Below, in pieces: positions 23,349 through 34,423 of a stretch of DNA of 41,721 bases. The DNA lies in assembly GCA_012520995.1 (NCBI GenBank), contig JAAYNI010000075.1:1-41721 (forward strand). Direction: 5' to 3'. Each line of letters opens with the position of its first letter. The stretch's first letter is position 1. The position numbers were made by a program, and so were the translations under genes. Source of the DNA: Candidatus Rifleibacteriota bacterium (GTDB lineage: Bacteria; Muiribacteriota; Ozemobacteria; Ozemobacterales; Ozemobacteraceae). Under the pieces are notes generated by a model, which was given only the letters and a program-made list of their open reading frames with translations, had not been told where the DNA came from and did no database searches.

Positions 23349-23888
23349 TTATTTAGATTTGACTACTTCTTCAGGCAATTTTTTATTTTTTGCATAAGTC
23401 AGCAATTTAAGATGTCTAAGCGGATGTTCTGTTTCAAAAACTCCCTTTTTATCGGTTTCATACTTAATTTTTATAATATCGCCTGAGGCATTCAGATACT
23501 TGGTTATCTTTACCGCTTTCCCTCCATCAGCAGCTTCAAAGGTTCGTGGAAGAAATGTAATTAAACCGTATTTGCTTTCACCCAAGTCATAAAGCTTTTT
23601 CTTCAGATCTGCAGACAACTTCTCATATTCTTCTTTAAAGATTGGAATATAGGTAGCCACAGGGCCAAAGTCGCCTTTATCAATTAAGCCTGCATAAGGT
23701 CTGGAAAAGTTATCTAATCCGAGCTTTCCAAATATTAACGTTATCTCTTCGCGACTTATAGGTTTAATTGCTTTTACCGCTGTTTTTTTTGCAGCAGTTT
23801 TTTTAGTTGCGGTTTTCTTTTTCGTAGTTTTTTTAGTTGCGGTTTTCTTTTTCGTAGTTGTTTTTGCTGCGGTTTTCTTTGTTGTCAT
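23349..23888 (-). CDS. Protein with histone-H1-like Lys/Thr/Ala tail and an unknown C-terminal domain
   Basis: The first 43 residues of this 179-residue protein are almost only Lys, Thr and Ala in repeats such as TKKKTATKKTTKKKTATKK, encoded by tandem DNA repeats (about 23765-23880). Such tails resemble eukaryotic H1 and bacterial Hc1/AlgP-type tails, which bind DNA or RNA without sequence preference. Residues about 45-179 form a separate globular part (REEITLIFGKLGLDN, SKYGLITFLPRTFEAADG) that I do not recognise. It sits between alr and a beta-CASP RNA nuclease, 36 bp from the latter. A nucleic-acid-binding role is likely; anything more is speculation. The repeats make length variation between strains likely. 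The ribosome binding site is weak. Confidence 0.75.
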   Translation of the reverse strand: MTTKKTAAKTTTKKKTATKKTTKKKTATKKTAAKKTAVKAIKPISREEITLIFGKLGLDNFSRPYAGLIDKGDFGPVATYIPIFKEEYEKLSADLKKKLYDLGESKYGLITFLPRTFEAADGGKAVKITKYLNASGDIIKIKYETDKKGVFETEHPLRHLKLLTYAKNKKLPEEVVKSK

Positions 23889-29582: not shown

Positions 29583-30095
29583 TTACTTTATAAGTGAGAG
29601 ATACTCGCGTTCAGTAATTACCGCAACGCCGTTTTTCATAAGCAAATAAGCCGCCATGCCAGAGCCATCTACAAGCGTCTTTGAAAAAGTGCCATCATAG
29701 CGTTTATATTTGCCGCAAGAAGGACTTTTACTTTTCAGAATAGCAAACTTGGCATCAAAGAATTTCGCCAAATGGAGAGCTTCAAAAGCTCCTTTAATAA
29801 AACTGTCAGAAACATCATCGCCTTCTACAGAAATAACCTTAGCTTTTCTGTCAAAAACAGCTTCAGCTCCGCCTAGCAGCTCTGAAGGCAAACGAGGAGT
29901 GGTCATACCGCCAAGCTGCTCAGGACATATCGGAATCAAGTTATAGTGTTTTGAGAGGGAATTCCACACATCTGGTTTATCTCTGTAAGCGGCTGCGCAA
30001 GTGCCTGCATAGTTGCACTGAAGACCTATCAAACAGCCGCTTATCAACAGAGATGAACCAGATGGAGGCAAGTTGAGAACTTGTGAATTCTTCAT
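29583..30095 (-). CDS. DUF523 (TudS-like) protein
   Basis: The 170-residue protein shows all DUF523 hallmarks: LLISGCLIGLQCNYAGT, LIPICPEQLGGMTTPRLPSE and LKSKSPSCGKY. The three conserved cysteines in CLIGLQC and SPSC are those that hold a 4Fe-4S cluster in the thiouracil desulfidase TudS, a member of this family. A desulfidase role, for example on thiolated bases, is therefore possible, but many DUF523 proteins are untested. Its start overlaps the stop of the TadB-TadC gene (ATGA at 30095-30092), indicating coupled translation in the Tad operon. No link to pilus assembly is known. Confidence 0.9.
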   Translation of the reverse strand: MKNSQVLNLPPSGSSLLISGCLIGLQCNYAGTCAAAYRDKPDVWNSLSKHYNLIPICPEQLGGMTTPRLPSELLGGAEAVFDRKAKVISVEGDDVSDSFIKGAFEALHLAKFFDAKFAILKSKSPSCGKYKRYDGTFSKTLVDGSGMAAYLLMKNGVAVITEREYLSLIK

Positions 30096-32155
30096 TCAGT
30101 TCTTTCAACTCCATCCAAGGAATAATCCTCATAATATGGTTGAACTTTTGGCAAAGTATCATCCCCCATAAAGAAAGGCGGCATAGAGTCTCTCTCTGTC
30201 GTGTTTTGTTCAGTTCCTAATGCGGGAGGAGGAGGAGGATCTTCCTGAAAAGTCATATAGAATGTCTTTGCTTGGGCATCAACCGAAGTGTCTGTTGTTT
30301 TCTTTGAAGGAACATCGACAGCAGGCGGAGGAGCTATAACAGCTTTAGGAGGAGCGGGAACCTTCGGCTGCAAAACAGGAATACTGGGAGGAGCTTCAAG
30401 CTTTGGCTGTTGCGAAGGAGAAAGCTTATAGAGATTAGAAGGTTGTTTGTTTTTTTCTGTTGGAAGAGTAACAGAAGTTTTTGTACCTTCTTCTGCCAAA
30501 GGCTTAGCAACAGGTTTTATTTGCTGTGAATCCATGGTGTGAGAAGCATATCCAGGCAAGCTTTTACCAGGCAGCTCGTAGTGTTCTGTTATAGAAACTG
30601 CTGGAGTTTGGGCTGCTTTTCGTTCCGCTACTTTTTTATCAGCCATAGGCATATTAAGCTTTACTTGGAGAATTGCAGGACCTAAGATGATAACAATAAT
30701 GCTGGGGAAAATGAATAAAACCAGAGGCAAAACCAATTTTGCTGGCAATTTATTTACCTTTTCTTCTGTTTGAATCATCTTCTGATAACGCATCTGCTCT
30801 GCTTGAGCACGAAGCGTAGGGCCTATTTCCGCTCCCAGACGTTGTGCCTGAACGAGAGCACTTACGAAAGAAAAGAAGGAAAGAACGCCAACCCTGCTAG
30901 CCATGTTTGTCAGAGCTTCTTCAAGACTTTTGCCTACTTTTGTGTCAGCTATAAGTTTCTTGAATTCTATTATAATATCGGTGTTGCGTGATTTTTCTAC
31001 GATTTTGGTTATACTGGTTATAAGGTCATAACCTGATTCTACTGCCAAAGAAAGCAAATCAATAATATATGGCAATTCAAACTCAATATTTTTCTGTCTT
31101 TCTTTAACCCTATGCATCATGTGCAGCTTCGGCGCTTGATAAGCAAGATATATCAATACTATAACCATTAAAAAGTGACCGAAGGTTGAAGCTCCTGAAA
31201 TGAGCATAAGCAGGATATAAATTATAGCAACTATCAAGGCAGAAAGAGCTTGGAGACCAACAAATTCTTGCGGAGTATAGAAGCCGGAGCGATCTGCCGC
31301 ATTCATTAAATATCTTGCGTCTTCAAAAGCCTGCTTTTTGTCTTGTCCTGGAAAAAGCTTGTCTATCAGCGTTACAATAGGTTTTACAGCTGCCTTGAGA
31401 AGATTTCTTGTGCGAATCGCAAAGCGAGTATTCGGATTTTTAGGTATCATGCTTTCTTCAGAAGCAGGAACCAAATAAGAAGTCAGATTGTTTATAAGCA
31501 GAAGACCTGCAAAATAAAGAACCGCTGTAACTGCCAATATCAAAAGACCTGTCGGATCCTTGATCATGGGAACAAGATAATCACGTCTTAGGAAGAACAT
31601 GAGTATAATCAAAAACACAGGGATCAAAGCAACCATGTTGCCTGAAATTCTGGCATGAGCACTGCCTGCTCTTATTTTACCCATAATCTTTTTGCGTTCT
31701 GTAACTGTCTGTACAATTTGTTTATACAAATCTTCCAGATTTCCGCCCGTTTCTTGTTGGAAAATCGTCGCGTTTACGGCTAAATCCAAATCAGGGCTGT
31801 TAACTCTCGCAGCAAGATTATTAAGAGCATCAGTCAGATTGACACCCAATCGTCGTTCCTGGACAAGAGTTCTGAATTCGTTGCATATAGGCGCAGGCGT
31901 TGATATGGCAACCAATTCAAAAGCTTGGTCAAGGTTACGTCCAGCCTTAAGAGAAGAAGATATCATAAGGAGAGCTTCAACAAGCTGATCTTCAAAGGTC
32001 GCATCGCTCATAACCTTGGCGTAAGGTGACTTGGACTTGTCTTCAGAGTCTTTTTGATTTGGGCTCACACCAATATAATTAAGAACTATTGCTCTTATAC
32101 CTAGGAACAGGAGCAATACTGCTGTAGCTTGTAAAAACAAACTGATAATATCCAT
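30092..32155 (-). CDS. TadB-TadC fusion, inner-membrane platform of a Tad/type IVc pilus system
   Basis: The 687-residue protein contains two type II secretion F domains in one chain. The first (about 55-190: LVEALLMISSSLKAGRNLDQAFE, FQQETGGNLEDLY) matches TadB; the second (about 360-500: IDLLSLAVESGYDLITSI, LVQAQRLGAEIGPTLRAQAEQMR) matches TadC. Membrane segments are seen near residues 5-25, 172-190, 203-223, 302-320, 325-341 and 475-498. A proline-rich tail of about 185 residues follows, with runs such as PAPPKAVIAPPPAVD. TadB and TadC are normally separate and form the platform that works with the TadA ATPase. The gene begins three bases after the TadZ-TadA stop. No pilin, prepilin peptidase or secretin gene is nearby. 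Confidence 0.88.
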   Translation of the reverse strand: MDIISLFLQATAVLLLFLGIRAIVLNYIGVSPNQKDSEDKSKSPYAKVMSDATFEDQLVEALLMISSSLKAGRNLDQAFELVAISTPAPICNEFRTLVQERRLGVNLTDALNNLAARVNSPDLDLAVNATIFQQETGGNLEDLYKQIVQTVTERKKIMGKIRAGSAHARISGNMVALIPVFLIILMFFLRRDYLVPMIKDPTGLLILAVTAVLYFAGLLLINNLTSYLVPASEESMIPKNPNTRFAIRTRNLLKAAVKPIVTLIDKLFPGQDKKQAFEDARYLMNAADRSGFYTPQEFVGLQALSALIVAIIYILLMLISGASTFGHFLMVIVLIYLAYQAPKLHMMHRVKERQKNIEFELPYIIDLLSLAVESGYDLITSITKIVEKSRNTDIIIEFKKLIADTKVGKSLEEALTNMASRVGVLSFFSFVSALVQAQRLGAEIGPTLRAQAEQMRYQKMIQTEEKVNKLPAKLVLPLVLFIFPSIIVIILGPAILQVKLNMPMADKKVAERKAAQTPAVSITEHYELPGKSLPGYASHTMDSQQIKPVAKPLAEEGTKTSVTLPTEKNKQPSNLYKLSPSQQPKLEAPPSIPVLQPKVPAPPKAVIAPPPAVDVPSKKTTDTSVDAQAKTFYMTFQEDPPPPPALGTEQNTTERDSMPPFFMGDDTLPKVQPYYEDYSLDGVERTE

Positions 32156-32158
32156 ATA

Positions 32159-34423
32159 TCAGTTTTTCCTCCTTCTTTTATTTTTCTTGGAAGCTTTATT
32201 ATCGAGATTATGGGATGATTCGCCACCGTCTTCCTCAAATCCTTCAGTTTCAGAATTATCCTCCGAAACGTTGCCATCTTCAAGTGTTTCTTCACTAGGG
32301 TTTTCCAAGGCTTCTTGAGACAATTCACTTTGTGAAGAGGGTGCGGATACAATGGTGAAATCTTCTGAAACGGTGTCAGGATCGAACAAATGCATATATT
32401 GTTTGGTAAATTCATAAGGCATTTTTTCCAAGAAGGTCGGAATTACGCCCGTCGGATAAATTTTACCTACTACATCGCCGCTTTCAGCTATCCATTTCTT
32501 TCTGAATTCAAAAATTGTCTGAGTCTGAACGACATTGTCTTCCATACCTACTACTTCTATGACTTCAAGCAGTTTTCTTTTGCCGTCGGCAAGCCTGCCA
32601 TTTTGAACAATTATATTCACTGAGCTGGCTATCTGTTCTCTGATTGCTCTAAGAGGCAAATCCACTCCCGCCATCAAAACCATAGTCTCCAAGCGAGCTA
32701 TAGCGTCTTTAGGAGAATTAGCATGCAAAGTCGTCAAAGAACCGTCGTGACCGGTATTCATGGCTTGGAGCATATCCAAAGTTTCAGCGCCTCTGCACTC
32801 GCCCACTATTATTCTGTCTGGTCGCATTCTGAGAGCGTTTTTAACCAAATCGCGAATCGTGACCTGATTTTTTGCTTCGGTACCTTGTTGTCTAGCCTCA
32901 AGCCTGCCTAAGTTCAATTGACTAAGATTAAGTTCGGCAGAGTCTTCAATACATATAATTCGCTCTGTCGGAGAAATAAAGGTGGAAAGAACGTTTAGCA
33001 AAGTTGTTTTACCAGAGCTGGCGCCGCCCGAAACAACAATGTTCTTTTTCATTTTTACGCAAAGCTTGAGAAAGTCTGCCACAGAAGGCGTCATACTTTT
33101 AAAGCGATACACAAGGTCGTCAATTGTCAAAGGAACCTTGGAGAATTTGCGTATGGTGATCATTGGCCCAGTCAGCGAAAGAGGCGGAATTATTGCGTGA
33201 ACCCTCGAACCGTCTAAGAGTCTTGCATCAACATAAGGGGTTCTTTCATTGATAGTTCTGCCAGCAGGCATTAAAATACGCTCTATAACCGTCTTGACGT
33301 GGTCAGAACTCGTAAACTTGTTAACAGTTAATTGGAGTTTTCCATATTTTTCAACGAAAATTTTGTCAGGCCCGTTTACCATGATTTCATCAACATCTTC
33401 ATCTCTCATGAAATCTTCCAATGGGCCTAATCCTAATATCTCATCCATTAAATACTGCTTTACTTCAATCGCAGCATTCTTGGCCAGATTTTCAGGCAAT
33501 GGATTTTTATGCAAAGCAACTTCAATACGCTTCTCAACAATTTCCCGCAATTCAGCGTCTGACATACCGAATTTGCTTTCAAGCTCTCCGACGATCTCAG
33601 ATCTGAGTTTTGTGCGATAGGCTATCAATTCTTCATTTAAAACTTGTTGCTGTGTTTGAGGGTACCCTCTTTGCGGAGTTTTACCAAGAGCTTCAAAAGC
33701 CAAGAGCTTGTCTGCGAGCATTTCAAAACTTTGATTAATACTTCTTCTGTTTCCTCCCATCAATTCTTCATTCATGGGAATTATATGCTCATTATCAAAA
33801 AGCGAAGCTTCTTTCAGACCTATTTCTTTGTCTACATGGTTTCTTATCCACAAAAGCTTTGATGTGACTTCCAATGGACTTTTAGCCTCCCGCTGAAACT
33901 TTTGAGCAAAAGCTGGTGCTGGCGGCTGTGAGTTGTAAATGTACATAACAGCATCCGCTTTATGAACCAAATACAGAGGCAATGGAGTCATCTGAAAAGC
34001 TATATCGAAAACAGCAAAAATCTGATTTTTTCTCAACAACTCTAACAAATGAGTTAATGCTTCAGTCAAATCCTCTTCCGAAAGGCGGAAGCTGGGTAAA
34101 AGACTTGCCGAATCGTTGTTTCCCGAAAATGGAATATAATATATGCCGTCATATTCAGTAAAAATTTTTGAAATACTTTCGGCATTGCTGAGCATCCAAT
34201 TGCTCATATAATATTCTAAAAAAGAGGTCTTAATTCGCTCCGTAGAAGGAAGCATTTCGACTATGGTCGAAGGTTTGAGAATATTGAACTCAAACAAAGC
34301 CACCTGTTTGCCTGTCTTTTTGGCTATGGCTTTTGCAGTCTCGTAAGCCACAAAAGTTTTACCTATGCCACCTTGGAAGCTTGTAAATAAAAAAGAAGAA
34401 GCTTTTTGATTGTTGTTAGCCAT
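32159..34423 (-). CDS. TadZ-TadA fusion (MinD-like localiser joined to CpaF-type ATPase)
   Basis: The 754-residue chain has two parts. Residues 1-245 are a ParA/MinD-like domain of the TadZ/CpaE kind, with an atypical Walker A FQGGIGKT (16-23; Gln where the signature Lys is usual) and AVFDIAFQMTPLPL. Residues about 265-660 are a TadA/CpaF secretion ATPase: VDEIMVNGPDKIFVEKYG, SGGASSGKTT (465-474), CIEDSAELNL, MRPDRIIVGECRG (Walker B) and SLTTLHANSP (His box). The last 70 residues are acidic, then strongly basic (KASKKNKRRRKN). TadA powers Tad pilus assembly and TadZ places the machine in the cell; here both are one protein. A good promoter lies 78 bases upstream. It heads a ten-gene run. Confidence 0.9.
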   Translation of the reverse strand: MANNNQKASSFLFTSFQGGIGKTFVAYETAKAIAKKTGKQVALFEFNILKPSTIVEMLPSTERIKTSFLEYYMSNWMLSNAESISKIFTEYDGIYYIPFSGNNDSASLLPSFRLSEEDLTEALTHLLELLRKNQIFAVFDIAFQMTPLPLYLVHKADAVMYIYNSQPPAPAFAQKFQREAKSPLEVTSKLLWIRNHVDKEIGLKEASLFDNEHIIPMNEELMGGNRRSINQSFEMLADKLLAFEALGKTPQRGYPQTQQQVLNEELIAYRTKLRSEIVGELESKFGMSDAELREIVEKRIEVALHKNPLPENLAKNAAIEVKQYLMDEILGLGPLEDFMRDEDVDEIMVNGPDKIFVEKYGKLQLTVNKFTSSDHVKTVIERILMPAGRTINERTPYVDARLLDGSRVHAIIPPLSLTGPMITIRKFSKVPLTIDDLVYRFKSMTPSVADFLKLCVKMKKNIVVSGGASSGKTTLLNVLSTFISPTERIICIEDSAELNLSQLNLGRLEARQQGTEAKNQVTIRDLVKNALRMRPDRIIVGECRGAETLDMLQAMNTGHDGSLTTLHANSPKDAIARLETMVLMAGVDLPLRAIREQIASSVNIIVQNGRLADGKRKLLEVIEVVGMEDNVVQTQTIFEFRKKWIAESGDVVGKIYPTGVIPTFLEKMPYEFTKQYMHLFDPDTVSEDFTIVSAPSSQSELSQEALENPSEETLEDGNVSEDNSETEGFEEDGGESSHNLDNKASKKNKRRRKN

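Follow-up and report, generated by a model that had tools for sequence, protein, structure and literature searches.

Fused tadZ-tadA and tadB-tadC genes encode a second Tad-type motor in the family Ozemobacteraceae

The window analyzed in this study corresponds to an entire contig (C35; 41,721 bases) of a Candidatus Rifleibacteriota genome, which has a size of 2.84 Mb and is assembled in 101 contigs. Its reverse strand, on which all window features described below lie, carries two neighboring genes for a Tad-type motor, a tadZ-tadA fusion (32159–34423, 754 aa) and a tadB-tadC fusion (30092–32155, 687 aa). The two genes are separated by three bases, and both open reading frames were recovered as the first-pass annotation had given them. 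A Shine-Dalgarno-like GGAGG (32172–32168) precedes the start codon of tadB-tadC (ATG at 32155) and lies within the 3′ end of tadZ-tadA. The third gene of the unit encodes a 2-thiouracil desulfurase (DUF523-type, 29583–30095) and overlaps tadB-tadC by 4 bp. Elsewhere in the window, a gene at 23349–23888 encodes a 179-aa protein without Pfam match, whose lysine/threonine/alanine-rich N-terminus is histone-H1-like.

The product of tadZ-tadA consists of a TadZ-type MinD/ParA-like domain (residues 6–258; 33650–34408) followed by a complete TadA/CpaF ATPase (residues 266–672; 32408–33628). The ATPase has a strong T2SSE match (Pfam, 2.1e-56, residues 331–607; 32603–33433) with every ATPase motif intact (Walker A GGASSGKTT, EDSAEL, RMRPDRIIVGECR and TTLHA), and the top structural matches of the modeled chain are the CpaF structures 8rjf, 8rkd and 9e24 (40–42% identity). 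For the N-terminal part, the CbiA/MinD P-loop (residues 12–48) was sub-threshold in Pfam when a single sequence was used (1.4e-4). A profile of 21 sequences, compared with canonical TadZ of the same genomes, matched over 215 columns (hhalign, probability 96.9, E 1.3e-10), and it also matched MinD 3q9l (9.5e-5) and 3fkq (0.0025), the latter being the TadZ structure of E. rectale. In the AlphaFold model of this part, strands alternate with helices, so that profile comparisons and model both show a MinD/ParA fold with a P-loop. The chain ends in an acidic-then-basic low-complexity tail (residues 685–754; 32162–32371; pLDDT < 50), which is found in some relatives only.

The TadZ part differs from canonical TadZ in having neither a REC domain nor the signature lysine of the deviant Walker A motif. 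Its P-loop in the window reads FQGGIGKT, with glutamine at the lysine position; QGGxGK[ST] was found in all 21 fused sequences, whereas canonical TadZ of the same genomes keeps the lysine (KGGxGK[ST]). The usual switch-I aspartate is replaced as well; E45 and N47 are invariant, and the P-loop lysine and D140 are retained. Judging from these residues, ATP binding may persist in the TadZ part. A MinD-type ATP-dimer switch is doubtful, because the signature lysine has become glutamine and the switch-I aspartate is replaced.

The tadB-tadC protein contains two T2SSF stretches by Pfam, the first TadB-like (31598–31969) and the second TadC-like (30683–31063). Models built from each half identified the N-terminal half as TadB and the C-terminal half as TadC, and the tree agrees with this assignment (99/99 split). 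Both the TadZ-like domain and the second T2SSF domain, on which the first-pass view of two fused chains depended, were found by domain and profile searches. The model of the first T2SSF domain resembles the cytoplasmic domains of EpsF/OutF/PilC; a Foldseek search with the TadB-TadC model gave no match below 1e-3, just domain-sized matches to EpsF, OutF and PilC. The proline-rich tail noticed in the first-pass annotation is present in the window protein (residues 516–687; 30095–30610), where it is predicted to be disordered (pLDDT < 50), but it is confined to some relatives. It was rejected as a functional part since it is not conserved across the family.

Besides the genome studied here, 20 others of the family (Ca. 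Riflebacteria/Ozemobacteraceae) carry an intact tadZ-tadA fusion, which excludes the assembly-joining error considered in the first-pass annotation. Records with names among the close relatives are mostly Candidatus Riflebacteria or Ozemobacteraceae. In the alignment of 21 family TadZ-TadA proteins, identity to the window protein is 54–63%. Wherever the contigs of relatives reach, tadB-tadC follows directly downstream of tadZ-tadA, and the desulfurase gene adjoins the pair in most of them, usually as the third gene. Two further family members have contig-edge fragments only (of both genes in G023, of tadB-tadC in G007). A search of GTDB-representative contigs by the motif SFQGG[IV]GK and then by homology, which reaches close relatives only, gave 20 loci, apparently all of the fused group. 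G001 contains two copies of tadB-tadC together with the 3′ end of tadZ-tadA, at a distance of about 17 kb (L068:279-2636 and L068:17706-19991). Either the region was duplicated in tandem and one copy is truncated, or the repeat results from the assembly.

Among the best matches listed for 382 genomes (109 with TadB/TadC-type matches), a depth at which weak fusions could be missed, one-chain TadB-TadC was found in this family only. Nine other candidates (G077, G222, G256, G340, G334, G233, G165, G286 and G240) were rejected, as their TadB and TadC had no shared ORF when fetched. The TadZ-TadA architecture is not unique, because MinD-TadA fusions were found in at least five genomes of other phyla among the loci inspected (L032, L105, L106, L108 and L109). 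Like the fused chain of the window, these carry a MinD/ParA-like domain N-terminal to TadA; they differ in belonging to other TadA clades, with TadB separate where seen, and apparently have several independent origins. Literature searches found no papers on a TadZ-TadA fusion or on Riflebacterial Tad systems.

Partial parallels have been published for both chains. KilF of the Myxococcus Kil system is an FHA-TadA fusion, and the Tad genes of that system are split over two loci (PMC8460266). KilF resembles the fused chain in its extra domain at the TadA N-terminus, but this is an FHA domain and not a MinD-like one, and the platform genes are separate. In Micrococcus luteus tad-2, the TadB and TadC ORFs are reported as fused ("TadB/C"), as in tadB-tadC; this protein differs in that few transmembrane segments are reported, and the system is Flp-based with no TadZ ortholog (PMC4322843). 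In many actinobacterial systems TadC is missing and TadB lacks two domains (PMC6668835), so that such a TadB is not a TadB-TadC fusion. Type IVa pili and T2SS use a PilB/GspE-type ATPase with one PilC/GspF, while the ATPase of the fused motor is of TadA type. All four motor parts of the canonical Tad system (type IVc, Flp; TadZ/CpaE, TadA/CpaF, TadB/CpaG and TadC/CpaH) are recognizable in the fused pair, in two chains instead of four, and unlike in canonical Tad loci, RcpA, RcpC, Flp and TadV are not nearby.

Searches of the same genome by family or profile located a canonical Tad locus on contig C70, with separate genes for a TadV-type peptidase, RcpC, the RcpA secretin, REC-TadZ, TadA, TadB and TadC. 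Flp pilins are encoded on C2, TadE-type pilins on C47 and a second prepilin peptidase on C41; the contigs bearing the Flp and TadE genes have no Tad motor. The genome also encodes several PilB-type motors. Beside the fused pair, Flp-type pilin, TadV peptidase and RcpA/RcpC genes are absent from the whole of C35. The first-pass observation that no pilin, secretin or prepilin peptidase gene is nearby is true of the 41.7-kb contig, although other contigs of the genome carry each of these genes. Its reading that the Tad pilus motor had been condensed into two genes is not supported for this organism, and condensation of the only Tad motor was rejected, because the separate-gene motor is still encoded on C70. 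Canonical TadA is likewise present in nearly all family relatives, and the fused motor and canonical Tad coexist in nearly every one. The fused pair is a second Tad-type motor, besides the ordinary Tad set, in nearly all sequenced members of the family.

In the TadA tree, the fused sequences form one clade (100/100), whose sister group (99/97) consists of three unfused TadA from two other families of the phylum (f7 and f8), and the canonical TadA of the same family falls in a different clade. The trees of the TadB half and the TadC half gave the same sister group (98/98 and 100/97). A recent duplicate of the canonical motor is thereby rejected by all three trees, and on this phylogenetic basis the fused pair is an old, anciently diverged second motor. 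Because TadA and both platform halves stand beside unfused f7/f8 genes, a single origin of the fusions, from a second motor that was still unfused, is most likely. The unfused tadA-tadB-tadC loci that are sister to the fused motor in all three gene trees (L098/L119, L102 and L030/L118) have, unlike the fused pair, no TadZ domain and separate TadB and TadC. Their organization resembles the state from which the fusions arose.

Synteny points to N-methyl-type prepilins as candidate substrates of the fused motor. N-methyl prepilins adjoin tadABC at three of the sister loci: at L098 and L119, prepilins with the N_methyl motif (PF07963) are followed by tadA-tadB-tadC on one strand, and at L102 one N-methyl prepilin lies upstream. 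At the G038 sister locus, no prepilin gene immediately precedes tadABC. Within the family, ten genomes contain a prepilin operon (large PilX-like, PilV-like and PilW-like) 5.9–16 kb from the fused motor. In the genome studied here, contig C31 carries the PilX/PilV/PilW-like operon, with hrcA and a groEL pair as its neighbors. The groEL pair also lies beside the operon in G008, G015, G001 and G013, and not beside the paralogous operons fetched; hrcA adjoins the operon here and in G008, and adjoins tadABC in sister loci. The C31 operon was assigned to the motor-linked group by synteny, as its branch in the tree is long and poorly placed. A full-length PilX-like match was found in most family genomes. 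G012 has neither a detected fused motor nor any PilX-like match, a double absence that is weak evidence because the genome is 70% complete. The first-pass suggestion that the motor may serve an unusual or scattered system agrees with this distribution, in which the prepilin operon is on another contig here and near the motor in relatives.

The likeness between sister and family prepilins is confined to the prepilin N-terminus, and the PilX-like proteins of the two groups do not align, so that homology between them is not detectable. No major pilin was identified, and the PilX/PilV/PilW-like operon looks like a minor-pilin set. One of the prepilins beside tadABC (L098:5733-6704(-)) matches "Verru_Chthon cassette protein C" (TIGR02599) weakly, below the cut-off, which hints that this prepilin cassette might be shared with Verrucomicrobia. 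The genome studied here contains two further PilX/PilV/PilW-like sets (L152:4080-12542(-) on C79 and L153:6962-11131(-) on C92), and the C79 set includes two PilX-like genes of about 1040–1070 aa.

With regard to these data, we propose that a second type IV filament machine of the Tad class, distinct from the canonical Tad pilus, has its motor and platform encoded at this locus; with its prepilin substrate and fusion mechanism included, we consider this proposal evenly poised between right and wrong. The fused pair would supply the cytoplasmic motor and the inner-membrane platform. The substrate would be the PilX-, PilV- and PilW-like prepilins (C31 in this genome), which would probably be processed by a PilD-type peptidase and assembled into a filament or pseudopilus. 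The TadA part would form the usual ATP-driven hexamer, in which the N-terminal MinD-like domain of each subunit may act as localizer or membrane adaptor in place of a TadZ recruited separately, and the TadB-TadC chain would be the platform heterodimer in one piece. Both fusions would have a single origin in the family ancestor, from an unfused tadA-tadB-tadC like those beside prepilins in related families. That the fused motor builds a filament from N-methyl-type prepilins, a pilin class differing from that of the Tad pilus, has about even odds on the synteny described above.

Several observations speak against the prepilin link. Within the family, intervening genes, some of them on the opposite strand, stand between the prepilin operon and the motor, which therefore do not form a single operon; four genomes, this one among them, show no linkage across the range searched; and the PilB-type motors of this genome could use the PilX/PilV/PilW-like operon. 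The link might thus be accidental, and the fused motor would then drive another filament, or serve secretion or adhesion as a device of its own, its pilins being too small or too divergent for recognition. This explanation draws on the intervening genes and the four unlinked genomes, on the paralogous sets of C79 and C92, which have no fused-type Tad motor nearby, and on the Flp and TadE genes, which lie here on contigs without a Tad motor. However, the prepilin-motor association recurs in another family, as adjacent same-strand genes, and we regard an accidental link as rather unlikely.

Alternatively, and as a chief rival to the N-methyl-prepilin reading, the fused pair could drive the canonical Tad (Flp) pilus as its second motor, so that both motors act on the same filament, used for example under different conditions or dividing extension and retraction between modules. 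The co-occurrence of both motors in nearly every family genome is in line with this, as is the case of Micrococcus luteus, where two distant tad clusters, one with tadB-tadC described as fused, are both needed for Flp pili and transformation (PMC4322843). The canonical locus, however, has TadZ, TadA, TadB and TadC of its own, and the fused TadA, TadB and TadC branch with unfused tadABC, some beside N-methyl prepilins, and not with the canonical set, which makes this use of the fused motor unlikely. It is highly improbable that the fused TadB-TadC is a relic of an ancestral unsplit platform: archaeal platforms do have two T2SSF domains, from which TadB and TadC are thought to derive by gene fission, but their order is TadC-like then TadB-like (PMC6668835), the reverse of the fused chain, and each fused half nests in its own clade beside the separate TadB or TadC of related families, so that an archaeal-type unsplit platform was rejected in favor of re-fusion of neighboring genes.

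A fixed 1:1 ratio of TadZ to TadA and of TadB to TadC, as expected in the first-pass annotation, holds within each chain by construction. How the Tad motor and platform are coupled, and in what stoichiometry, is debated (rotary or gyratory models, and the number of CpaG/CpaH dimers per CpaF hexamer; PMC11300603), and a 6:3:3 model of CpaF:CpaG:CpaH has been published (PMC11300603). The TadB-TadC fusion would fit the 6:3:3 model, and TadZ on every TadA would mean six TadZ domains per hexamer.

Other fusions of motor genes were observed in the same phylum. Families f7 and f8 encode single chains of 1510–1780 aa that contain three TadA (T2SSE) domains each (L042:2761-7293(+), L044:6021-10553(-), L043:1549-6777(+), L050:5169-10511(-) and L045:1631-6448(-)). 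Each of the three domains has a Walker A motif, the third domain of L045 has a deletion, and the domains cluster by position across genomes in L042/L044 and L043/L050. The CpaF hexamer has C2 symmetry, with a trimer as its repeating unit (PMC11300603), so that one triple-TadA chain could, speculatively, be one asymmetric unit of the ring. In G006, a TadC-like T2SSF domain and a TadA-like ATPase are joined in a 772-aa ORF (L047:5293-7611(+)); the ATPase motifs are altered (TSCLAENP for TTxHANTP), and this platform-motor fusion is perhaps decayed.

A natural single-chain TadB-TadC simplifies the platform and makes equal numbers of TadB and TadC obligatory, and the MinD-like domain covalently attached to TadA shows that each subunit of a motor can accept, or require, a TadZ-type partner of its own. 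For the organisms themselves, a tentative reading, to which we give a little under an even chance, is that a Riflebacterial Tad-class lineage switched to N-methyl-type (T4a/T2SS-like) prepilins, and that one family has consolidated its motor into two polypeptides, with a MinD-like adaptor on each TadA and a single-chain TadB-TadC.
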